Position numbers and translations under genes: made by a program. From an uncultured Litoreibacter sp. (GTDB lineage Bacteria > Pseudomonadota > Alphaproteobacteria > Rhodobacterales > Rhodobacteraceae): 64,000 nt of DNA. The stretch covers positions 924,359 through 988,358 of the forward strand of contig CANLVO010000002.1 in NCBI GenBank assembly GCA_947494645.1, given 5' to 3'. The notes beneath the pieces are model-generated. The model was not told where the DNA came from. It saw only the letters and a list, made by a program, of their open reading frames with translations, and did no database searches. Positions within the stretch are counted from its first letter, which is position 1; every line of letters begins with the position of its first letter. Shown here in pieces: positions 11,613-23,889 of this stretch.

Positions 11613-14600
11613 CTAATGAAAATCCCGCGACTTTGGGATCACCCGGACGTTGCGCGGGTGGGTGCGGCCCGCTTGCCCGCCAACCTGACTTGGCAAGGGA
11701 TGGGTCGGATGATCGCCCCGCGTGGTGATGCCCGGCAGGGTGATATCAGACAGCCCCGCCAGCCGGTCGCTGCGGTCTTCCAAGCGATTGGCCACGACAT
11801 GGATCACCTTGCCATCGGTCTGCACCTGACCGTGCACGACCAGCAGCCGTGCGGCCATGATCACGGGCCGGAAGGTATTGAACAGCGTGGGCCAGATCAC
11901 CAGATTGGCGACGCCACTTTCATCCTCCAGCGTGATGAAGCACACGCCTTTGGCGCTGCCGGGTTTCTGCCGCACCAGCACCAGCCCGGCCAGTGACACC
12001 CGTTGCCCATGCCGCATCCGGCGCAGATCGCTGGAACAGGAAAACCCCTGTTTGCGCAGGCTTTGGCGGTAGAATTGCATCGGATGGGCCTTCAGAGACA
12101 GCCGCAACGTCTGGTAATCCGCCACGACATGCTCGGCACGCGGCATGGCGGGCAGGATGACCTCTGGCTCGGGGCCATAGGCGCTGGCCTCGGCATGCTC
12201 GAACATGGGCAGGGCAGGGGCGTCTTTCAGGGTTTGGGACTGCCACAACGCTTGGCGCCGGTCGAACCCCATCGACCGCATCGCATCGGCTGCTGCCAAG
12301 CGTCGCACCGCGCCTGCATCCAGCCGGGCGCGGCTTTTCAGATCGGCCAGATCAGCAAACGGCGCATCGCGCACAGCCATGATCCGCAACCCCGCCTCTT
12401 GGTGCAGCCCGTCCACCTGCCGCAGGCCAAGGCGCAGGGCAAAGCCCGTGTCGCACGGCTCCAGCGTGCAATCCCAGTCGGAATAGTTCACATCCACCGC
12501 CCGCACCTCCACGCCATGATCCCGGGCGCAGCGCACAATCTGGGCGGGGGCGTAGAACCCCATCGGCTGCGAATTGAGCAACGCACAGGCAAAGGCCGCC
12601 GGGTAGTGGCATTTCATCCAGCTGGACACGTAGACCAGCTTGGCAAAGCTCGCCGCATGGCTTTCGGGAAAGCCGTATTCGCCGAAGCCCTTGATCTGGT
12701 TGAAGCACCGCTCCGCGAAAACCGGGTCATAGCCGCGCTCGGTCATGCGGCCGACCATCTTTTCCTGCAGCTTGCCGATGGTGCCGCGCGAGCGAAACGT
12801 CGCCATCGCCTTGCGCAGCTCATTGGCCTCCTTGGGGGAGAACTTCGCCGCGTCAATCGCGATTTTCATGGCCTGTTCCTGAAAGATCGGCACGCCTAAT
12901 GTGCGGCCCAGAATTTTCAGTAGTTCGTCTTGCGGATGGGCCGGGCCGGGGGCGGGGTAGTTCACCGTCTCGATCCCTTGGCGGCGGCGCAGATAGGGGT
13001 GCACCATGTCGCCCTGAATGGGGCCGGGGCGCACAATCGCCACCTCGATCACCAGATCGTAGAATTCGCGCGGTCGCAGCTTGGGCAGCATCGCCATCTG
13101 CGCCCGGCTCTCCACTTGAAACACGCCCAGACTGTCGCCCTCGCAGAGCATGTCATAGGTGGCCGTGTCATCTGGCGGCACAGTGGCCAGCTCGAAGCTT
13201 TCGCCGTGATGGGCCTCGATCAGGTCGAAGCACTTGGCGATGCAGCTCAGCATGCCCAGTGCCAGAATATCGACCTTGAAGATGCCAAGCGCGTCGATGT
13301 CGTCCTTGTCCCACTCGATAAAGCTGCGCTCCGGCATGGCGCCGTTTCCGATGGGCACGATCTCCGTCAAAGGGCGTTCGGTCAGGATGAAGCCGCCGAC
13401 ATGCTGGCTCAGATGGCGTGGCATCCCGATCATCTGGCGCGCCAGCGTCAGCACCATGCGCAGATACGGGTCCGACAGGTCCAGCCCGGCCTCCTTGGCC
13501 CGTTCGTCGGCCATCTGCCCCTCAAAGCTGCCCCAGATCGTGCCCGCCAGTTTCGAGGTCACATCCTCGCTCAGCCCCATCGCCTTGCCGACCTCCCGGA
13601 TGGCGGAGCGCGGGCGGTAATGGATCACGGTGGCGCAGAGCCCCGCCCGGTGCCGCCCGTATTTGGCGTACATATACTGGATCACCTCCTCGCGCCGCTC
13701 ATGCTCGAAATCCACGTCAATGTCGGGCGGCTCGTCGCGCTCTTCGCTCAGAAAGCGTTCAAACAGCACGTCATGCTCGTTGGGGTCCACGCTGGTCACA
13801 CCAAGGCAGAAACACACGGCAGAGTTCGCCGCCGAGCCGCGCCCCTGACACAGAATAGGCGGCTCCGCCTCGTAGCGGGCGAAACGGACAATGTCGTAGA
13901 TGGTCAGAAAATACCGCGCGATCTTCTTGGAGCGGATCAGCGCGAATTCCTTCTCAATCGTCTTGACCACATGGCCCGGCGTGCCCTCCGGGTAGCGGGT
14001 CTTGGCCCCCTCCCAGGTCAGGCGCTCCAGTTCTTCCTGGGCGCTGCGCCCGTCGGGCACGATCTCGGAGGGGTACTCGTATTTCAGGTCACTCAACGCG
14101 AAGCTGATCTTATCGGCCAGCGCCCGGGTGGCTTTGATCGCGTGGGGCCATTTGGCAAACAGGCGGCACATCTCGGCGGGCGGTTTCAGGTGCCGCTCCG
14201 CATTGGCCTCCAGCAGAAACCCCGCCTTGGGCACGGTGGTGCCGTTGCGGATGCAGACCATGATGTCTTGCAACGGGCGGCGCTCGGGCGCGTGGTACAG
14301 CACGTCATTGGTGGCCAGAATGCCCAAGCCATGCTGCCGCGCCAGCCGGTCCAGCCGGTTGATCCGCGCCACGTCGTCGCCCCGGTACAGATACGCCGCG
14401 CCGACATGGCGCATCCCCGGCAGCGCCTTGCAGAGCCGCGGTAGGCTGGCGGCGAAGCTGTCCAAATTCTGGGGCGGCATCACGATCAGATGCAGCCCCT
14501 CGCTATGGGCGGCCAGCATCTCCAGCGTCAGATGGGTCTGGTCTTTCTCCTGCCAGCCGCCATCCACTGTCTGCATCTTGCCTTTCGACAGCAGCGTCGA

Positions 14601-14933
14601 GAGCCTTGCATAGGCGGCGCGGTCCTGCGGGTAGGCCAGAATTTCGGTGCCGCAGATCAGCACCAGCCGCGACCCGATCAGGGGCCGGATGCAGGCGGTG
14701 GCGGCCTCCGTGTGCATCCGCACCACGCCTGCCAGCGTGTTGATGTCGGCGAGCCCCGCGCAATCATAGCCCAGCAGGTTGGCGGTGCCGCACAGATCCA
14801 CCGCGTCCGAGGCCGCCCGTAGAAACGAAAAGCAACTGGCCAGCCCGAATTCGACGTAGTCCGCCGGTGGGTGCCAGCGAAACCCGTTCTCGTCGCCCAG
14901 GGTGCGGCGGGCGTGGCCTTCCTGCTCGGGCAT
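11613..14933 (-). CDS. dnaE2: Error-prone DNA polymerase DnaE2
   Basis: A 1106-residue C-family polymerase that performs translesion synthesis with ImuA and ImuB. I use the ATG at 14933 (MPEQEGHARR), which overlaps the imuB stop by one base (TGATG); a longer frame runs back into imuB and is not needed for the family length. The PHP domain begins with VEFGLASCFSFLRAASDA. The palm holds the catalytic aspartates in PPDIDVDFEHERREEV. The fingers carry FQEQAMKIAIDAAKFSP, and an OB-fold with GLVLVRQKPGSAKGVCFITL lies near the C-terminus. DnaE2 lacks the DnaE1 tau-binding tail. It is the last gene of an SOS-controlled operon. Confidence 0.96.
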   Translation of the reverse strand: MPEQEGHARRTLGDENGFRWHPPADYVEFGLASCFSFLRAASDAVDLCGTANLLGYDCAGLADINTLAGVVRMHTEAATACIRPLIGSRLVLICGTEILAYPQDRAAYARLSTLLSKGKMQTVDGGWQEKDQTHLTLEMLAAHSEGLHLIVMPPQNLDSFAASLPRLCKALPGMRHVGAAYLYRGDDVARINRLDRLARQHGLGILATNDVLYHAPERRPLQDIMVCIRNGTTVPKAGFLLEANAERHLKPPAEMCRLFAKWPHAIKATRALADKISFALSDLKYEYPSEIVPDGRSAQEELERLTWEGAKTRYPEGTPGHVVKTIEKEFALIRSKKIARYFLTIYDIVRFARYEAEPPILCQGRGSAANSAVCFCLGVTSVDPNEHDVLFERFLSEERDEPPDIDVDFEHERREEVIQYMYAKYGRHRAGLCATVIHYRPRSAIREVGKAMGLSEDVTSKLAGTIWGSFEGQMADERAKEAGLDLSDPYLRMVLTLARQMIGMPRHLSQHVGGFILTERPLTEIVPIGNGAMPERSFIEWDKDDIDALGIFKVDILALGMLSCIAKCFDLIEAHHGESFELATVPPDDTATYDMLCEGDSLGVFQVESRAQMAMLPKLRPREFYDLVIEVAIVRPGPIQGDMVHPYLRRRQGIETVNYPAPGPAHPQDELLKILGRTLGVPIFQEQAMKIAIDAAKFSPKEANELRKAMATFRSRGTIGKLQEKMVGRMTERGYDPVFAERCFNQIKGFGEYGFPESHAASFAKLVYVSSWMKCHYPAAFACALLNSQPMGFYAPAQIVRCARDHGVEVRAVDVNYSDWDCTLEPCDTGFALRLGLRQVDGLHQEAGLRIMAVRDAPFADLADLKSRARLDAGAVRRLAAADAMRSMGFDRRQALWQSQTLKDAPALPMFEHAEASAYGPEPEVILPAMPRAEHVVADYQTLRLSLKAHPMQFYRQSLRKQGFSCSSDLRRMRHGQRVSLAGLVLVRQKPGSAKGVCFITLEDESGVANLVIWPTLFNTFRPVIMAARLLVVHGQVQTDGKVIHVVANRLEDRSDRLAGLSDITLPGITTRGDHPTHPLPSQVGGQAGRTHPRNVRVIPKSRDFH

Positions 14934-16477
14934 CAGGCAAACAGCCCATGCAGAAACCAGCGCGGGGTGCCGCCGCGCCGGTCGTCGGGCAGCCCCTCGC
15001 GGTAAACCCAGAACCGCCTGCCATCGGCGACCTCTACCTTGTAATAGTCGCGCAGCCGCGTGCCGGGGCGGTCGCGCCACCATTCAGGGGCAATGCGCTC
15101 GGGCCCTTGGAACCGCGCGGTCTTGTAAACCACGCGTCGCCAGCGAAATTGCGACGGAGGCCCGTCCGGCACCGCATAGATCACCTGCACCTCTTCGGGG
15201 GGCAGGAGCAGCCGCACCGGGCGTTCGCGCGGCGGGCGCACCATGTCGCCGGGGGCATGTTCAAGCGCGGCCACCCGGCCCGCCACCCGCTCCGGCATAT
15301 GGGTCTGTGCAGAGACGGGCCAGCTGACCCGCTCCTTGCCCAGCCGGGCGGTCAGCCGGTCCAGCAGCCCGGCCATATCAGCATCAGCGTTGCGCTTGCC
15401 GTCCAGCTCGGATTGCACACGGGCCAAGGGCTCCGCCCGCAGCGCCTCCAGTGTGATCAGGTCGAACCCAAAGCCCGGGTCCACGCCGCTCAGCTGGTCG
15501 TCAAACAAGCGCACCAGATGCGCGGGGTCGCGGCTGGCGCGTGCGGTGGCGCGGCTGACCGACAGGCTTTCGCCGTCGATGCGGTAGATCGTCAGCCGCA
15601 GCTGGCGCGCGCCCTGTTCGGCTTGGGCCAGCGCGTGGCACAAATCCGCGCTCAGCGCGGCCATATAGGGCGTGGGGTCCATCACCGGCTCGGCCAACCG
15701 GGCGCGGGCGATGAAATGCTGCGGGTCAGGCGGTGCGTTCAAGGGCTCAGCGGCGCGGCCCAAAGCCTGATCCAGCAGGATCAGGGGGTTGTCTGTTGCG
15801 GCCAGATTGGCAAAGCGCCGCATCATCGAGACCCGTGGCACCTGCGCCAAATCCCCGATGGTCTTCAGCCCCAGACGGTGCAGCAGCCGGGCGGTGTCGG
15901 CGCTCAGCCCAAGTGCCGCCACAGGCAGAGGGGCCAAAGCAATGCTCACATCACCCGGCCCACAGCGGCTGAGTGCAGGCCCGAACCGCGCCAAGGCCCG
16001 CCCCGCGCCGCGCGTCGGCGCCATCGCCACCCGGGCGCTGAGGCCCTGCATCGCAAAGCGTTGGCAGATGTCGCGCAGCAGCGCCTCCGCGCCGCCAAAC
16101 AGATGCACCGCGCCGGTCACGTCCAGCACCAGCCCGTCACCTGCATCCAACGCCGTCCACGGGCACCAGCGCCGCGCCCAATGCACCAAGCGCTGCATCA
16201 GCAGCTCGTCGCCGCGCAAATCAGCCGGTTCAATATGCAGGTCGGGATGAATGGCCTGCGCGTCCACCACCCGGTCGCCCGCGTGGATACCCCGGTCGCG
16301 GGCGGTCTGGTTCAACGCATGCACCACGGGGCCATGTGTGCCCTCACGCGACAGCACCACCGGCACGTCCTCATCCGGTGTTGTACGATACTGGCTGATC
16401 ACCCTCCGCCACCGCTCCATCGTGAGGGCGGGAAAGAAAACGCACACCATCTGGCGCTCTGGAGGTGCCGCGCTCAT
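14933..16477 (-). CDS. imuB: ImuB, inactive Y-family polymerase-like protein
   Basis: A Y-family (DinB/UmuC-like) protein of the mutasome. It serves as a hub linking DnaE2 to the sliding clamp and is thought to be catalytically dead. Starting at MSAAPPERQM gives 514 residues; another plausible start is MVCVFFPALTMERW nine codons later. GDGLVLDVTGAVHLFGG near residue 100 is the family's palm segment. LSADTARLLHRLGLKTIGDL near 200 is the helix-hairpin-helix. The C-terminus RLRDYYKVEVADGRRFWVYR is typical of alphaproteobacterial ImuB. The reading frame remains open upstream inside imuA, so the exact start is uncertain; the imuA overlap is about 80-107 bp. It ends in TGATG, coupling it to dnaE2. 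Confidence 0.92.
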   Translation of the reverse strand: MSAAPPERQMVCVFFPALTMERWRRVISQYRTTPDEDVPVVLSREGTHGPVVHALNQTARDRGIHAGDRVVDAQAIHPDLHIEPADLRGDELLMQRLVHWARRWCPWTALDAGDGLVLDVTGAVHLFGGAEALLRDICQRFAMQGLSARVAMAPTRGAGRALARFGPALSRCGPGDVSIALAPLPVAALGLSADTARLLHRLGLKTIGDLAQVPRVSMMRRFANLAATDNPLILLDQALGRAAEPLNAPPDPQHFIARARLAEPVMDPTPYMAALSADLCHALAQAEQGARQLRLTIYRIDGESLSVSRATARASRDPAHLVRLFDDQLSGVDPGFGFDLITLEALRAEPLARVQSELDGKRNADADMAGLLDRLTARLGKERVSWPVSAQTHMPERVAGRVAALEHAPGDMVRPPRERPVRLLLPPEEVQVIYAVPDGPPSQFRWRRVVYKTARFQGPERIAPEWWRDRPGTRLRDYYKVEVADGRRFWVYREGLPDDRRGGTPRWFLHGLFA

Positions 16478-17120
16478 AGGCGGCCACCCAACGCCCGGGT
16501 GCGCGGCCCCGGGCGCGAAACAGCTCCGCATCCCAACGTGCCGCACCGGGGGCTTGCAGATTGTCGGGATTGGCCTCTGAGGGCAGAGAGCCCACACGCC
16601 ATCGCGCCCGCGCCGCGCTGAGACCGCCCGGGTCGCCCGCCCGGATCATAAAAACCGGCACGCCCGAGGCCTCGCTGCGCAGGGCCAGCCGTTTGGTGGC
16701 GGTAAAGCTCAGCACTTTCGGCGCGCCGTAAACCTCGCCAATAACAGCCGACAAGGCGCTGCACGCAGCCCCTTCTTCCATCGCCCAAAGCACGTCGCGG
16801 GGGTGGTTGACCATGATCTGCAACACGGGCCTTTTGGGCCCGAAAGCGGTGATGCTGGGCATGTAAACCTGCCCGTTCTCCTGCCGAGACCCCCTGTCCT
16901 GCACCCACAAAACCGGCCCCTCGCGATCGCGCGGCAGGCTGGTCAGCGCAAACGCCGTCGCCGCTGGGTCGAAAGGCCGCGACGGCAACAGATCGGTCAA
17001 CGCGGCCTGTTCTATCGGAGCATGATCCGGCGTGTTTGCCGCAGCATGTTTCACCTCCGGCAAATACAGGCTGAGCCCCTTGCGGGCGTTTCGTGAAGAA
17101 TCTCCGGGCATGCATTCCAT
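16371..17120 (-). CDS. imuA: ImuA, SOS mutagenesis RecA/SulA-like protein
   Basis: A 249-residue first member of the imuA-imuB-dnaE2 cassette. The fold is related to RecA/SulA, and ImuA is required for DnaE2-dependent induced mutagenesis. Visible are RPVLQIMVNHPRDVLWAMEE near residue 100, ALSAVIGEVYG near 125 and PVFMIRAG near 155, which match the degenerate ATPase core of alphaproteobacterial ImuA; the family lacks a consensus Walker A. A LexA box ends 6 bp upstream of the ATG, so this gene carries the operon's SOS promoter. A second ATG three codons downstream (MPGDSS) could also be used. The 3' end extends about 100 bp into imuB. Confidence 0.88.
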   Translation of the reverse strand: MECMPGDSSRNARKGLSLYLPEVKHAAANTPDHAPIEQAALTDLLPSRPFDPAATAFALTSLPRDREGPVLWVQDRGSRQENGQVYMPSITAFGPKRPVLQIMVNHPRDVLWAMEEGAACSALSAVIGEVYGAPKVLSFTATKRLALRSEASGVPVFMIRAGDPGGLSAARARWRVGSLPSEANPDNLQAPGAARWDAELFRARGRAPGRWVAAYERGTSRAPDGVRFLSRPHDGAVAEGDQPVSYNTG

Positions 17121-17125
17121 TATAT

Positions 17126-17140
17126 GTTCACTTTTTGTTC
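17126..17140 (-). promoter_or_regulatory. LexA (SOS) box of the imuA-imuB-dnaE2 operon
   Basis: GTTCACTTTTTGTTC is a perfect GTTC-N7-GTTC direct repeat, the alphaproteobacterial LexA operator (GAAC-N7-GAAC read in the direction of imuA). It lies immediately upstream of imuA, as expected for a DNA-damage-inducible imuABC cassette. Confidence 0.9.
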
Positions 17141-17424
17141 ACGCAATCAATATCGAGATCCCGCGACCAAAAACGAAGTGCCTAAGGTCCGGAATCAAGC
17201 CGAAGGCGCCGGACCAGCGGCTGTCCGTCCCGGCGGACTGGCGCTTTTGATGCAGACGCGCTTAGCATGGATGGAAGATGTATTTGGCAACCATAAAGCG
17301 CTGCCGGACTTCTGGTGCAGCGCCACTCCACGGACAGCCGCTGGCCCGTCTCACGTCGCGTATCGCCATCCCGTTCGGGCGGTCTGGCGATGCACGGCAC
17401 CTTCGGCTTGCTTCCGTGCAGAGC
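17141..17424. other. Intergenic stretch between the mutagenesis operon and the dehalogenase fusion gene
   Basis: About 280 bp with no supported gene. It should hold the -35/-10 of imuA and the 3' untranslated end of the dehalogenase gene. Two inverted repeats are visible: GTCCG/CGGAC around 17224-17239, and TGCACGG (17391-17397) pairing with CCGTGCA (17414-17420) just past the dehalogenase stop. Neither has a T-run, so a rho-independent terminator is not supported. Short frames here lack ribosome sites. Confidence 0.5.
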
Positions 17425-20400
17425 CTACAAATCCACCTCAATCACGCCGCCTCTCTCGGCCGCGCGGGACTGGCACAGGATTACCTCCCCTTCGCGCTGC
17501 TTGTTCGACAGCACAAAGTCGCGATGCTCCACCTCGCCCGAGATCAGCCCGCATTTGCACACACCGCAAATCCCGTCGGAGCATTTCACATCCACCGCAA
17601 TGCCGTTCTCTGCCAGCACATCCGTGGCGGATTTCTCCGCCGGGACCATCAGCGTCTTGCCCGACTTGGCGAGCTTCAGCACAAAATCATGGTTCTCCCA
17701 TTCGGGCACGTCCGGCAGGGCGAAATATTCCAGATGGCGGGCCTCTTCGGGGAAACCTGCCGCCTCTGCCGCTGCCATCACCGCGTCCATGAACCGGTCC
17801 GGCCCGCAGGTGTAGACGTGATCCCCCGCGCGGTAGCCCGCCAGCACCGCGCCCAGATCCGCCCGCGTGCCCTCGCTGGAGATATGCAGCTGCACCCGGT
17901 CCGCCCACGGCACATTGGCCAGGTCGTCCAAAAACCCCGCGCTGTCGCGGGAGCTCACCGAATAATGCAAGGCAAACTCCGCCCCCTTGGCGTGCAGCTC
18001 ATGCGCCATGGCAATCATCGGCGTGACCCCGATGCCGCCGCCCATCAAGAAATGCCGCTTGCCGTCCTCTGCGACCGGGAAATGATTGATGGGTGGCGCG
18101 ATGAACACCTTGCGCCCCTCGTCAAAAATCCGGTGCATCAGCTTGGAGCCACCGCGGCCCGCATCCTCTCGCAGCACCCCGATCTGGTAGACAGATCGAT
18201 CCGCCGGGTCGCCCGACATCGAGTATTGCCGCAGAAATTCCGGGGCCACCACAATATCCAGATGCGCCCCCGCCTGCCATGCGGGCAAGTCGCCGCCATC
18301 CTCGCGGTGGAACTCGTATTTGGTGACGTCCGCGCTCATCCGCTCCACCCGGCTGACCACCACCGGGATCACCGGGCTCTCAGCGTCATTGGTGTAGCGG
18401 TGGATCAACCCGTCCATCTCGCCCGCGTTCATCCGGCGGTATTCGGCGGCAGGGATCATCGCGTCATACGCCGCAATCCCCGCCTCCCGGTCCATCGGGA
18501 AGGGGTAGGGATAGGGGTGTGGGGCCAAGGGCGCAGGGTAGACCGCCAAGGTCTGGTCCTCGTATTTCAGGTCCAGCTCGCGCTGCAAATCGCGCCGGTT
18601 GACCGCGTGCTCTGTAGGCCTGTAGCCGCCGTCCTCTTGCAGCTCCAAATCCCACCACCAGGTCTTGGTCTCGTTCAGCCCACCGTTGCCCGCAATGTCA
18701 TCCAGCTTGGCCAGCGCCGGGGCCAGTTTCGGCACGTTCATCGCGGCCCAGCGGAACGGGGCCTCGCTGAAGATGCCTTCCAAGTTCCACGGGCAGGTCT
18801 TCATGCAGCGGCCGCACATGGCCCCGCCCGGCGTGGTGATCCGGTAGGTGGTGCATTTCTGGCTGTCGGATTTCCAGATCTCGTAGCCGTTGAACATCAG
18901 CTTCGGTCCGGCGGTGATCGCGCCCGAGGGGCACTCGCGGGCGCATTTGTTGCAGCTCTCGCAAAAGCTCTGCAGCCCGAAATCAATCGGGGCGTCATGT
19001 GCCAGTGGCAAATCCGTCGTCACCACCCCCGATTTCAGCCGCGGCCCCAGATAGGGGTTCAGGATCACCTCGCCAATGCGGCTGACCTCGCCCAAGCCGC
19101 TGAGCAACAACAACGGAGGCTGCAACACCTCGCCATCCATCACCGAATGCGCCTTGGCCGAGTAGCCTAGCCGCCGGATCTGTTTGGCAATCACGCCGCC
19201 AAGCAACGAGAACCGCAAATAGGCCCGCATCGATTGCGCTACCGCGATCCAGTCATCGCCGCTGGAGCCCGCCATAGTCTCGAACCCCTGATCAATGATC
19301 ATCGAAATCGCCTGATCATGCGGCGGGTCGATCACCTCGCCGCGCGCGTCATGGCTGTACCAGGTCCAGTCCGGGCAACGCGAAATGCCCACCGCGTCGG
19401 CTCCGATGAAATACGCCGCCGCCTTGATATGCTCTGCCGCCGCGACCGGGTCCATCTTCTGCGGGGCGCCTTCCGCCGGGCCGTCCTGCAACAGCACAAA
19501 CGCCCCCAAGGCGCGGCGTTGCGCCGCCGATGGCGCGGCTTTCACCGCGTAATGCCCGCCCGTCGCGGCCTTCTGGTTGCCCTTGCCCATGTCGCCAAAT
19601 TGCGAGCGGGCGAACATGTCGGTGCGCTTGGGTACGCGGGCAACGTTGGGCTCGTCAATATAGGTGGTCGGCTCCGCCACGCGCTTCAGCTTCTCAAACG
19701 GATGCGCCCCGTCCATGTAACGCCGCTTGGCAAAGCCGTCCCGATTCAACGCGGATTTCTCGGACGCTGTGCCCAGTTTCCAGGCCAGCCCATGGGTCAC
19801 ACTGCGGGGCTGCTCAGCCGCCAGCGGCGCGTCGCTTTCCATCTCGAAACTGGTGGTGATCGCCGCCAGCCCGAAACGCGTGCCCAGATAGGGATGCACC
19901 AACACGCCATTCTCGACCGTTGCCAGCCCCGCCGCCACGGCCAGCCTGTGCAAGTCCACGTCGCTGGAGGTGGCGCTATGCGATTTGGCGGCAAAGCCCA
20001 GCACGCGAATGTAATTGCCGATAACGCAGGCCGTCTCGTTGGCCCGCAAAGCGGCGCGTTGGGCCTGCGCATCGGCGATCCAGTCATAGCCCGGCTCGTC
20101 CGCCCAAGGGTCACGCGGGTATTCGTAGGCAAAGACAATCGCGTGGCGATGCGCCTCAATCCCGCGCGGCGGGGCGGTGATGCTGTCGCGCAAACCCGCC
20201 ATGATCATGTCGATGCCGGAGGCCAGCGTCTTGGTCTGCCGGGTCCGCAGCGCCTCCCCCAACGCGTCAATGCCGGGGTTGCGGATAGGCGTCTCAAGCC
20301 GGGCCGCATCTGGCAGGGCGCAGATGCCCACGATGCTGGCATCGCTGAAATAGCCGAAAGCCTTGATATGGCGGGCGCGCTCGCCAGGGTCGTCCGGGCA

Positions 20401-20625
20401 CTCCGCCACCACGCCGTTGACCAGCCCGTCGCGGATCGTGTCCAGCATGGCCTGATACTCGCCCATCGCATTAACGATACTTTGCGGCGCGTCGGGCCGC
20501 TCGAAACTCAGTGCGTCAAAGGGCGGGCAGGTGTCCAAAGGCGGTAGGTGCGCCGCGCGGGCCAGCCGCTCGACCGGGTAGGGGCCCAGATGGGGCGCTC
20601 GGGATTTGGTGGAAAACAGCCGCAT
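17425..20625 (-). CDS. Self-sufficient reductive dehalogenase: RdhA-type B12/4Fe-4S core fused to flavin reductase and 2Fe-2S ferredoxin
   Basis: A 1066-residue fusion, no signal peptide. Residues about 80-265 and 390-540 are similar (IGNYIRVLGFAAKSHS and IAKQIRRLGYSAKAHS, then VHPYLGTRFGL and LNPYLGPRLKS), so the cobalamin-binding module is duplicated and probably only the second copy works. Two 4Fe-4S sites follow: CESCNKCARECP (Cys 555-565) and C-x12-CGRCMKTCP (591-611). Residues about 750-985 form a phthalate-dioxygenase-reductase-like flavin/NAD(P)H module (RQYSMSGDP, GGGIGVTPM, YTCGPDRFMD). The C-terminus is a plant-type ferredoxin, CSDGICGVCKC plus a later Cys (1015-1051). This layout fits the aerobic, cytosolic dehalogenases such as Comamonas BhbA and NpRdhA, which remove ortho-halogens from halophenols. 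I use ATG 20625; a TTG 13 codons upstream is less likely. It lies 45 bp after oxyR on the same strand. Substrate unknown. Confidence 0.88.
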   Translation of the reverse strand: MRLFSTKSRAPHLGPYPVERLARAAHLPPLDTCPPFDALSFERPDAPQSIVNAMGEYQAMLDTIRDGLVNGVVAECPDDPGERARHIKAFGYFSDASIVGICALPDAARLETPIRNPGIDALGEALRTRQTKTLASGIDMIMAGLRDSITAPPRGIEAHRHAIVFAYEYPRDPWADEPGYDWIADAQAQRAALRANETACVIGNYIRVLGFAAKSHSATSSDVDLHRLAVAAGLATVENGVLVHPYLGTRFGLAAITTSFEMESDAPLAAEQPRSVTHGLAWKLGTASEKSALNRDGFAKRRYMDGAHPFEKLKRVAEPTTYIDEPNVARVPKRTDMFARSQFGDMGKGNQKAATGGHYAVKAAPSAAQRRALGAFVLLQDGPAEGAPQKMDPVAAAEHIKAAAYFIGADAVGISRCPDWTWYSHDARGEVIDPPHDQAISMIIDQGFETMAGSSGDDWIAVAQSMRAYLRFSLLGGVIAKQIRRLGYSAKAHSVMDGEVLQPPLLLLSGLGEVSRIGEVILNPYLGPRLKSGVVTTDLPLAHDAPIDFGLQSFCESCNKCARECPSGAITAGPKLMFNGYEIWKSDSQKCTTYRITTPGGAMCGRCMKTCPWNLEGIFSEAPFRWAAMNVPKLAPALAKLDDIAGNGGLNETKTWWWDLELQEDGGYRPTEHAVNRRDLQRELDLKYEDQTLAVYPAPLAPHPYPYPFPMDREAGIAAYDAMIPAAEYRRMNAGEMDGLIHRYTNDAESPVIPVVVSRVERMSADVTKYEFHREDGGDLPAWQAGAHLDIVVAPEFLRQYSMSGDPADRSVYQIGVLREDAGRGGSKLMHRIFDEGRKVFIAPPINHFPVAEDGKRHFLMGGGIGVTPMIAMAHELHAKGAEFALHYSVSSRDSAGFLDDLANVPWADRVQLHISSEGTRADLGAVLAGYRAGDHVYTCGPDRFMDAVMAAAEAAGFPEEARHLEYFALPDVPEWENHDFVLKLAKSGKTLMVPAEKSATDVLAENGIAVDVKCSDGICGVCKCGLISGEVEHRDFVLSNKQREGEVILCQSRAAERGGVIEVDL

Positions 20626-20670
20626 GTCAGCGCCCACGTTGCGGCTGAACGCGGGCGATTGCAACCGGGC

Positions 20671-21564
20671 TTAGGCGGTCGGCGCGCAGCCCCGCACAAT
20701 GTCGGCGACTTGTGCAAACTGCGCCTTCAAGGGGCTGGTCTTTCGCCAGACCATCCCGATCATCCGTTCCGGCCCCGGGGCCGGGAAGTTCGAGACCGCA
20801 ACCGGGGCCGAGCGTGTCTCTACCTCGACGGCCATTTTCGGGATCAGCGTCACCCCAATGCCTGCGCCCACCATCTGCACCAGGGTCGACAAGGAGCTGC
20901 CATCCAGCATCTCACGCGGGGAGGCCGCTGCCGCATTGCAAAACGACAACGCCTGATCGCGGAAGCAATGGCCCTCCTCCAGCAGCAACAGCCTCATTTC
21001 ACGCAGTTTTTCGGCGCTGGGCACCGCCAGATCGCCGTCTGATTGCGGGCGCACCAGTACGAAATCTTCCGAGAAAAGCGCCACTTCTTCCAACGAGGGT
21101 TCCGAGACAGGCAACGCCACAATAGCTGCATCTATGCGCCCATCGGTCAGTTCTTGGATCAGCGTCGGCGTCAGCGTTTCGCGCACATGCAAATCCAGCC
21201 CGATATGGGCGCGGGTCAGCTGACCGATAATGGCGGGCAGCAGGTAGGGTGCAATCGTGGGAATCACCCCTAATCGCAGCCGCCCGCTCAGCCCGTCCTT
21301 GGGCGCGCGGGCAAGGTCTTCCAGCTCATCGACGCCGCGCAGAATGTCACGCACGCGCAGCGCGAAATCCTCACCAAAAGCTGTCAGCCGCACTGACCGC
21401 GTGCCGCGCTCGAACAAGGCGGTGCCCAGATGCGCCTCCAGCTCCTTGATTTGCATGGACAAAGCCGGCTGCGACACCGCGCAAGCTTCTGCGGCATGGC
21501 CGAAATGACCCATTTGAGCGAGCGCTTCGAAGTAGCGAAACTGTTTTAAAGTTAACCGGTCCAT
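20671..21564 (-). CDS. oxyR: OxyR, hydrogen-peroxide-sensing LysR-type regulator
   Basis: A 297-residue LysR-family protein. The N-terminal helix-turn-helix reads LKQFRYFEALAQMGHFGHAA with CAVSQPALSMQIKELE. The peroxide-sensing cysteines are present in LEEGHCFRDQALSFC, equivalent to E. coli OxyR Cys199 and Cys208, so the redox switch is intact. It is divergent from katG with 108 bp between the starts, the usual arrangement for direct control of catalase-peroxidase. The reductive-dehalogenase fusion follows on the same strand and may be cotranscribed. GcvA or CatR-type LysR functions are excluded by the cysteine motif. Confidence 0.95.
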   Translation of the reverse strand: MDRLTLKQFRYFEALAQMGHFGHAAEACAVSQPALSMQIKELEAHLGTALFERGTRSVRLTAFGEDFALRVRDILRGVDELEDLARAPKDGLSGRLRLGVIPTIAPYLLPAIIGQLTRAHIGLDLHVRETLTPTLIQELTDGRIDAAIVALPVSEPSLEEVALFSEDFVLVRPQSDGDLAVPSAEKLREMRLLLLEEGHCFRDQALSFCNAAAASPREMLDGSSLSTLVQMVGAGIGVTLIPKMAVEVETRSAPVAVSNFPAPGPERMIGMVWRKTSPLKAQFAQVADIVRGCAPTA

Positions 21565-21672
21565 AAGTTCATCTTATCGCATTGATCAGAAAATACGACT
21601 TAAACTAATTGGGTGGATTTGGTAAATAGAAGCCAGACAAATCACCGACTTCCAACAGCAGGAGCATCCCCG
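21565..21672. promoter_or_regulatory. oxyR-katG divergent promoter, probable OxyR operator
   Basis: The 108-bp divergent gap is AT-rich compared with its surroundings. ATCTTATCGCATTGATCAGA at about 21571-21590 shows the loose dyads and T-N11-A spacing of LysR-type binding sites. No exact OxyR consensus is seen, so the operator is inferred from gene order. The katG ribosome site (AGGAG, 21660-21664) lies 8 bp before its ATG. Confidence 0.45.
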
Positions 21673-23889
21673 ATGGACGGCAACCCCACAGACAATGCAG
21701 CGAAATGCCCAGTGATGGGAGGGCGCGAGGTCAACGCCGTCGTGCAGAAGATGAGCAACAAGCTGTGGTGGCCGAACACGCTTGACCTTAACGTGCTCAA
21801 GCAGAACTCCCCCGAAGTGGACCCAATGGGCGAAGAGTTTGACTACGCCGCCGAATTCAAAACGCTCGACCTGAAAGCTGTGAAGGCCGACCTCACCGCG
21901 CTGATGACCGACAGCCAGGATTGGTGGCCTGCCGACTATGGCCATTACGGCCCGTTTTTCATTCGCATGGCGTGGCACTCTGCCGGCACCTACCGCACCT
22001 TTGACGGTCGCGGCGGCGGTACCTCCGGCACGCAGCGCTTTGCGCCTCTGAACAGCTGGCCAGATAACGGCAACCTCGACAAAGCCCGCCGCCTGCTCTG
22101 GCCGATCAAGCAGAAATACGGCCGCAAGCTGTCCTGGGCCGACCTGATGATCCTGACCGGCAACGTGGCTCTGGAGTCCATGGGTTTCGAGACCTACGGC
22201 TTTGCCGGTGGCCGCGCTGACACTTGGGAGCCCGAAGACGACATCTATTGGGGGCCCGAAGCCGAATGGCTGGCCGACGAGCGCTACTCCGGCGACCGTG
22301 AATTGGCGGAACCGCTGGGCGCTGTGCAGATGGGTCTGATCTACGTGAACCCTGAAGGCCCCAACGGCAATCCCGACCCGCAGGCCTCTGGCCGCGACAT
22401 CCGCGAAACTTTCGCCCGCATGGCGATGAATGACGAGGAAACCGTCGCGCTTGTGGCCGGTGGCCACACTTTCGGCAAGGGCCACGGCGCCGCCGACCCC
22501 GACAAGTTCGTGGGCCCCGAGCCCGAAGGCGCGGACTTGACCGCGCAAGGCCTCGGCTGGCTGTCCAGCTATGAAAGCGGCGGCGGCGTGCACGCCATCA
22601 CCTCCGGCATCGAGGGCCCTTGGACCCCCAACCCGACCCAATGGGACATGGGCTATTTCGACGTGCTCTTCGGCTATGAATGGGAGCTGACCAAAAGCCC
22701 CGCAGGCGCGAATATCTGGGCCGCCAAAGACCTCGACGGCAAGGACCACGCGCCGCAGGTTGACGGCTCCGGCGACACGGTGCCCCTGATGATGACCACC
22801 GCCGACATGGCGATGCGCATGGACCCGGCCTACGAGAAAATCTCCCGCCGCTTCCACGCCAACCCAGCTGAGTTCGCAGAGGCTTTCGCCAAGGCATGGT
22901 ACAAGCTGACCCACCGCGACATGGGACCTCACGTCTGCGGTCTGGGCGCGGAAAAACCCGCCGAGCCGCTGCTGTGGCAAGACCCGGTGCCTGAGGTCGA
23001 TCACCCGCTGGTCGACGCGGCAGACATCGCGTCACTGAAAGAGCAGATCCTCGCCGCCGGCATCCCGGTCAACCAGCTGGTGGAAACCGCTTGGGCCTCC
23101 GCCGCCACCTTCCGCCAGACCGACCGTCGCGGTGGGGCAAACGGCGCACGCATTCGCTTGGCCCCGCAAAAAGACTGGGAGGCCAACCAGCCCGCACAAC
23201 TGCAAACGGTGCTGGCCGCGCTTGAAAAGGTGCAAGCCGATTTCAACGGCAAGGCAGCGGGTGGCAAGAAAGTCTCCCTCGCGGATCTGATTGTGCTGGC
23301 AGGCACCGCTGGGGTGGAACAGGCCGCGAAAGATGCGGGCCAGCCCGTCGAGGTCGCCTTCACACCGGGCCGCACCGATGCCAGCGAGGCGCAAACCGAC
23401 GCAGAGTCGTTCGAGGTGCTCGAGCCCCGCGCCGACGGCTTCCGCAACTATCTGGGCGCGGGCCAGAACCACTTCCGCTCTCAGGCGGAAATGCTGGTCG
23501 ATCGGGCGCATCTGCTGAACCTCACCGCGCCGGAAATGACCGTGCTGGTGGGCGGCATGCGGGCGATGAACGCCACGGTCGGCGGCGCACACGGGGTCTT
23601 CACCGACCGCCCGGGCCAGCTGACCACCGATTTCTTCACCGCGCTGATGGATATGAGCGTGGAGTGGAAAGAGACCGGCACTGATGACGTGTTCGAGGCC
23701 GTCGACCGCGCCACTGGCAAGGCCAAATGGACCGGCACCTCAGTCGATCTGATCTTTGGCTCCAACTCGCAATTGCGGGCGCTGGCCGAGGTCTATGCCT
23801 GCGACGACGCACATGCCGATTTCGTCCAGGACTTCGCCAAGGCCTGGACCAAGGTCATGGACGCGGACCGGTTCGAACTGGCAGCCTGA
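21673..23889 (+). CDS. katG: Catalase-peroxidase KatG
   Basis: A 738-residue bifunctional heme enzyme that removes H2O2 and has broad peroxidase activity. The ATG at 21673 with AGGAG upstream is chosen over an upstream ATG at 21613 that lacks a ribosome site. The distal heme pocket is intact ([11 protein letters not shown], with the catalytic Arg, Trp and His). The Met-Tyr-Trp adduct tyrosine lies in [14 protein letters not shown]. The proximal histidine is in [16 protein letters not shown] second, degenerate peroxidase domain follows from about residue 430, as normal for KatG. It is divergent from oxyR and ends at a strong terminator, consistent with a single-gene peroxide-inducible unit. 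Confidence 0.97.

Follow-up and report, generated by a model that had tools for sequence, protein, structure and literature searches.

JtRdhA (WP_104007082), a reductive dehalogenase from the marine host Jhaorihella thermophila (order Rhodobacterales), carries out NADPH-dependent debromination and deiodination of ortho-halophenols, keeps a 1:1 coupling also in air, and is inhibited without turnover by the chloro-analogues tested (PMC10463259). We analyze a related gene, rdhA, at positions 17425-20625 (minus strand) of a 64,000-nt stretch from an uncultured Litoreibacter sp.; this whole stretch is called the window, window coordinates are used throughout, and C1 and C2 are contigs of the same genome. 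Its product is very probably a cytosolic, self-sufficient catabolic reductive dehalogenase. The fusion, the duplicated cobalamin-binding domain, aerobic activity and a marine Rhodobacterales host are already published for JtRdhA (PMC10463259), which removes the novelty implied by a preliminary description of the window. Likened through its published description, JtRdhA has the same order of parts as the window protein (duplicated cobalamin domain, two [4Fe-4S] clusters, phthalate-dioxygenase-reductase (PDOR) module), likewise lacks a twin-arginine (Tat) signal and has the same six active-site residues (PMC10463259); its substrates are established, whereas that of the window enzyme is predicted. 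The RdhA-PDOR class is thus already described and is common among marine relatives, and the window gene adds one more intact-looking member.

BhbA of Comamonas sp. 7D-2 (plasmid pBHB, WP_015585978) is also a full-length RdhA-PDOR fusion, 51% identical to the window protein over 100% of the query, and it carries a 51-52 aa stretch discussed below; its gene shares a plasmid cluster with genes for protocatechuate 4,5-dioxygenase and transporters, whereas the window gene adjoins oxyR and katG. NpRdhA of Nitratireductor pacificus (PDB 4ras, 6zxu) is 44.3% identical over 573 aligned columns (the larger aligned stretch), has identical active-site residues and is the top Foldseek match, but it lacks the PDOR domain, and in place of the 52 residues 106-157 of the window protein it has 10. 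Both comparisons, together with one against QueG (below), had been proposed in the preliminary description, and they bear out its assignment to RdhA.

Ros_A3X954 of Roseobacter sp. MED193 is a roseobacter catabolic dehalogenase without a Tat signal that debrominates 2,6-dibromophenol; in contrast to the window enzyme, it has no PDOR module. Its assay relied on titanium citrate and methyl viologen, and the enzyme is highly oxygen-sensitive, losing its activity in oxygen (PMC13101508). MED193 has two genes above the cut-off of the RDH model (below): L037, a PDOR fusion 72% identical to the window protein, and the shorter L093, a 537-aa frame without a PDOR module that holds the motifs printed in that report (PMC13101508). 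Because the published motifs lie in L093 and not in L037, we rejected Ros_A3X954 as the counterpart by descent of the window protein: it is the strain's shorter paralogue, and its assay is therefore not citable as an assay of the orthologue.

Anatomy and conservation of the two modules

The rdhA frame is intact, with an ATG at 20625, 1066 residues and no internal stop. This start agrees with the N-terminus of NpRdhA in the alignment to PDB 4ras, and a TTG start gives a longer variant (17425-20664, minus strand). The NCBIfam RDH model TIGR02486 matches the whole protein at 201 bits (3.4e-59; cut-off 160), which places it in the RdhA superfamily; module 2 alone also exceeds the cut-off (1.1e-50, 173 bits), and module 1 alone falls under it (8e-9, 36 bits). 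The best solved relative is NpRdhA (4ras, 5.2e-158, residues 1-105 and 158-734), and respiratory PceA-type enzymes match module 2 more weakly (4uqu, 9.9e-32). All the parts that the preliminary description had read in this one frame are located here (a pair of RdhA-like modules, both 4Fe-4S motifs, the flavin/NAD(P)H reductase and the 2Fe-2S ferredoxin), and the peptides it quoted, including VHPYLGTRFGL/LNPYLGPRLKS, are found in the translation.

Module 2 (18688-19323, on the minus strand like every part of the gene; residues 435-646) is the cobalamin and 2x[4Fe-4S] RdhA core, with S465, M466, Y469, K531 and R595. Its first 4Fe-4S motif is C555xxCxxCxxxC565 (C555-C558-C561-C565; 18931-18963) and its second is C591...C604xxCxxxC611 (C591...C604-C607-C611; 18793-18855). 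The C-terminal module is of the PDOR type (PDB 2pia, 1.1e-53, residues 753-1058), and comprises a flavin/NAD(P)H reductase part (17716-18369, about residues 753-970) and a plant-type 2Fe-2S ferredoxin domain (17461-17667, residues 987-1055; Fer2, 1.2e-9) with C1015, C1020, C1023 and C1051.

Conservation was counted over 100 full-length rows, namely the window, 78 loci from the genome_contigs sample (L014-L091), five plasmid loci (L102-L106, BhbA being L102) and 16 loci from the genus (L107-L122); L089 equals L109 in sequence, and L012, L013 and the fragment L123 stand outside this count. The published active-site residues common to NpRdhA and JtRdhA (F291, S422, M423, Y426, K488 and R552 in NpRdhA numbering; PMC10463259) align with F338, S465, M466, Y469, K531 and R595 of the window protein, all identical. 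All 100 rows share these six residues, the eight 4Fe-4S cysteines of the two motifs and the four 2Fe-2S cysteines without change.

Module 1 (19822-20391, residues 79-268) aligns with module 2 at 35% over 125 columns (E=8e-15). It has A192 at the position of Y469, where the 100 rows hold C (76), A (14), G (8) or S (2) and never Y, and G252 at the position of K531 (G in 98, S in 2). Lacking the Fe-S part and the catalytic Tyr and Lys, module 1 is a degenerate duplicated cobalamin domain, as found in catabolic RdhA. Its role was left open by the preliminary description; for NpRdhA, the published account answers the question, the counterpart being vestigial, unable to bind cobalamin and a mimic of the dimer interface of respiratory enzymes (PMC10463259). 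Within module 1, the stretch of residues 106-157 (20155-20310) is 52 aa long in 98 of the 100 rows and 51 aa in the other two. RdhA-PDOR fusions have a specific insert of their own, described for JtRdhA (PMC10463259), and this stretch is probably that insert.

An AlphaFold model, computed with 30 window and locus sequences, has a mean predicted local distance difference test score (pLDDT) of 71.0 and a predicted template modelling score (pTM) of 0.64, and is reliable across most of module 1 and a large part of the reductase. When the model was searched with Foldseek, ranks 1-14 were NpRdhA chains (TMt 0.76-0.78, E 9.8e-54 to 1.0e-51), followed by PDOR-type reductases and P450-reductase fusions.

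As the preliminary description also stated, no Tat signal is seen in the first 40 residues, judged by inspection without a signal-peptide program, and on this ground we rejected a respiratory RdhA. Inspection likewise found no rdhB-like gene adjoining rdhA, no RdhB or Tat model having been run on the window or genome. Upstream of rdhA, 45 bp leave no room for rdhB, and the ~300 bp behind rdhA are mostly a palindromic repeat.

Probable catabolic role and the oxyR-katG neighbourhood

By analogy with characterised relatives, from which we infer the reaction, electron path, halide preference, oxygen tolerance and role of module 1, NAD(P)H would reduce the flavin of the C-terminal PDOR module (flavin mononucleotide in JtRdhA), and single electrons would pass from the 2Fe-2S domain through the two 4Fe-4S clusters to base-off cobalamin in module 2. 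There, a C-Br or C-I bond ortho to the phenolic OH would be reductively cleaved, with a proton supplied by the Y469/K531/R595 group, while module 1 would be a vestigial copy packing at the site taken by the second subunit in dimeric respiratory enzymes. The likely use would be debromination or deiodination of marine halophenolics, for example 3,5-dibromo-4-hydroxybenzoate, with the dehalogenated ring then entering 4-hydroxybenzoate/protocatechuate catabolism. The genome contains PobA (659 bits) and PcaH (341 bits), both within C2:539797-542692; judged from the presence of these genes, a route from 3,5-dibromo-4-hydroxybenzoate through 4-hydroxybenzoate to protocatechuate is possible, and with it this substrate. 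CobN-type chelatase genes are also present, one of which could be a magnesium chelatase subunit. Homology, the conserved residues and the published properties of JtRdhA (PMC10463259) support a cytosolic, NAD(P)H-driven RdhA with a phenolic bromide as likely substrate, as the preliminary description proposed.

Several observations weigh against the catabolic assignment. TIGR02486 has matches in 11 of 14 control genomes (none above the cut-off), and JtRdhA is absent from the best 80 of 279 genome_contigs relatives, so that it may be well below 70% identical. In the literature searched, no report was found of an enzyme assay on any protein of the window's sequence clade, and since Ros_A3X954 is inactivated by oxygen, it is not certain that the window enzyme tolerates oxygen. 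The Fe-S region of module 2 is poorly modelled (pLDDT blocks of 38-56 over residues 551-650); the AlphaFold model, mediocre in this module, was therefore used for fold ranking only, and the ranking, while consistent with the sequence, adds little independent weight for module 2. Finally, whereas BhbA is surrounded by catabolic genes, rdhA has oxyR/katG and DNA-repair-type genes as its nearest neighbours.

The oxyR-like LysR regulator (20671-21564, minus strand) ends 45 bp before rdhA; its best NCBIfam match is OxyR (1.7e-69, 234 bits, under the 329-bit cut-off), and two of its cysteines have the spacing of the OxyR motif. The katG catalase-peroxidase gene (21613-23889, plus strand; TIGR00198, 1069 bits, above the cut-off) is divergent from oxyR. 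The same fold and electron path could then serve mainly in detoxification or protection under OxyR-linked peroxide stress, and not in carbon gain, with halophenols removed when H2O2 is present; we regard this role as unlikely, yet as the most serious competitor of the catabolic one. Halophenols arise through haloperoxidases and H2O2. A peroxide role is favored by the gene order in the window and in its two nearest species, where rdhA follows oxyR on one strand after 45 bp and katG is divergent, by the lack of a terminator-like site in the 45-bp gap (20626-20670), and by the absence of aromatic-degradation genes among the neighbouring genes scanned. The gap aligns well across the three species, and co-transcription of rdhA with oxyR in this three-species clade is possible, judging from the sequence.

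Against a peroxide role stands the narrow spread of this arrangement. Of the 21 genus genomes, 18 have an OxyR match (E 1e-60 or better) with a KatG match next to it, but rdhA lies behind oxyR in only three of the 18 (the window's own genome, G012 and G018); the 15 other oxyR-katG loci, once retrieved, had no RdhA match within ~1.5 kb of oxyR. Among the best 80 of 279 genome_contigs loci, some of whose contigs stop near the gene, the oxyR-rdhA arrangement occurs in L012 and L013 only, from the same two nearest species. A promoter scan found no site anywhere in 17000-21800 and is uninformative, so the blank gap says little, and position alone is no proof of regulation. It is doubtful, though conceivable from gene order, that a dehalogenase was captured behind oxyR in a small Litoreibacter-like clade and that H2O2 turns on debromination along with KatG; if true, halophenol removal would be coupled to the peroxide signal that accompanies halophenol formation. 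Limited to the window and its two nearest species among those examined, the oxyR linkage looks new. In the one literature collection searched, no report was found of an OxyR-reductive dehalogenase linkage or of RdhA in Litoreibacter; the literature on Litoreibacter and dehalogenases returned a passage on haloacid dehalogenases (PMC3910544). As a separate observation, the katG-oxyR gap (21565-21612) contains a stretch conserved across the three species that could hold an OxyR site.

Clustering of open reading frames (ORFs) from 100 loci, with frames running into rdhA dropped and many antisense or spurious frames among the families, gave no conserved rdhA neighbour, as no family occurred in more than 22 loci. 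Upstream regulators were counted with MarR and LysR/OxyR seeds only: a MarR-type gene lies within 500 bp upstream of rdhA in seven of 95 loci, and a LysR/OxyR-type gene in three (the window, L107 and L066, the last divergent and a weaker match). ORF clustering and the two regulator seeds together thus yielded no wider conserved partner gene.

Two further explanations, which would replace the catabolic dehalogenase by a different kind of protein, are both very improbable and were rejected. A decayed or repurposed non-catalytic homologue would fit the loss of catalytic residues from module 1, but module 2 retains the six active-site residues and the cluster ligands, the frame is open, and a degenerate module 1 is usual in catabolic RdhAs (PMC10463259). 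A QueG-type epoxyqueuosine reductase or other class III B12 enzyme is suggested by a weak match to the QueG model TIGR00276 (28 bits, residues 489-576), far under the cut-off of 200 and set against an RDH score above its own cut-off; the genome has a separate QueG gene (444 bits), and the PDOR fusion, the duplicated module and the NpRdhA active-site residues point to RdhA.

Distribution and descent of rdhA

Homologues of rdhA occur in 19 of the 21 genus genomes: 18 (the window's own included) have it at full length, and in G009 it is divided between two contigs. G010 and G017 match only through the reductase domain. In a family sample of 394 genomes, at least 144 have a full-length row (alignment starting at query position 5 or earlier and ending at 1036 or later, with at most two candidates scored per genome), which leaves at least 142 of 392 once the window's own genus, with its two genomes, is set aside. 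A broader tally of 340 of 394 takes in matches to the reductase module alone, and is therefore not an RdhA count. The census of at least 142 of 392 family genomes gives a rough lower bound for a class proposed to turn over marine bromophenols. Of the 279 relatives that passed in genome_contigs, the best 80 were kept; they include Rhizobiales, and the two nearest-species relatives are 91% identical to the window protein. Eight plasmid records cover at least 80% of the query.

A FastTree phylogeny of 101 rows, rooted on BhbA and with G009 left out as a fragment, joins the window, L012 (G012) and L107 (G018) in one clade with support 100; three long branches, including those of BhbA and L106, meet in this tree. 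Four label changes are required for the 18 genus rows, and starred branches force every one of them: 13 of the rows group in a clade of their own, and L108 (G013) and L109 (G008) lie elsewhere. The G008 protein is identical to the RdhA of Litoreibacter roseus K6. Polyphyly of rdhA within the genus looks new and suggests horizontal exchange, or old paralogues with losses. The window enzyme itself leaves the picture of this class unchanged; the oxyR linkage and the polyphyly are modest facts on how the trait moves and on its possible control.

The fusion is also seen at 69-71% identity in four loci titled Granulosicoccaceae (Gammaproteobacteria; L041, L049, L061 and L076), which fall among alphaproteobacterial rows in the tree. 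These assemblies are metagenome-assembled genomes, so binning errors are possible, and either horizontal transfer or such an error may account for them.

Sequences downstream of rdhA

A low-copy intergenic repeat, nested and palindromic, occupies 17190-17416 (no strand assigned) between rdhA and the next gene. Its arms are 22 nt (91% complementary) and 19 nt (95%), and its RNA fold z-score is -7.6; an Rfam search of 16900-17600, which spans the repeat, gave no match at E up to 1, and no Rfam family reached its gathering score anywhere in the window. Further copies of a ~160-nt core are found at C1:119284 (82%) and C1:2012296 (73%), and shorter fragments of it lie on C2. With up to three mismatches allowed, the 22-nt end matches nine places in the genome, two of which are this element, and the backwards control matches none. 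At the same place in L013, 215 nt of the repeat stretch match at 92%.

Beyond the repeat, 11613-17120 probably holds an imuA-imuB-dnaE2-like mutagenesis cassette. The imuA candidate has no model match and is assigned by its position, and the cassette includes an IMS/Y-family domain protein and an error-prone DnaE scoring 1375 bits, above its cut-off.

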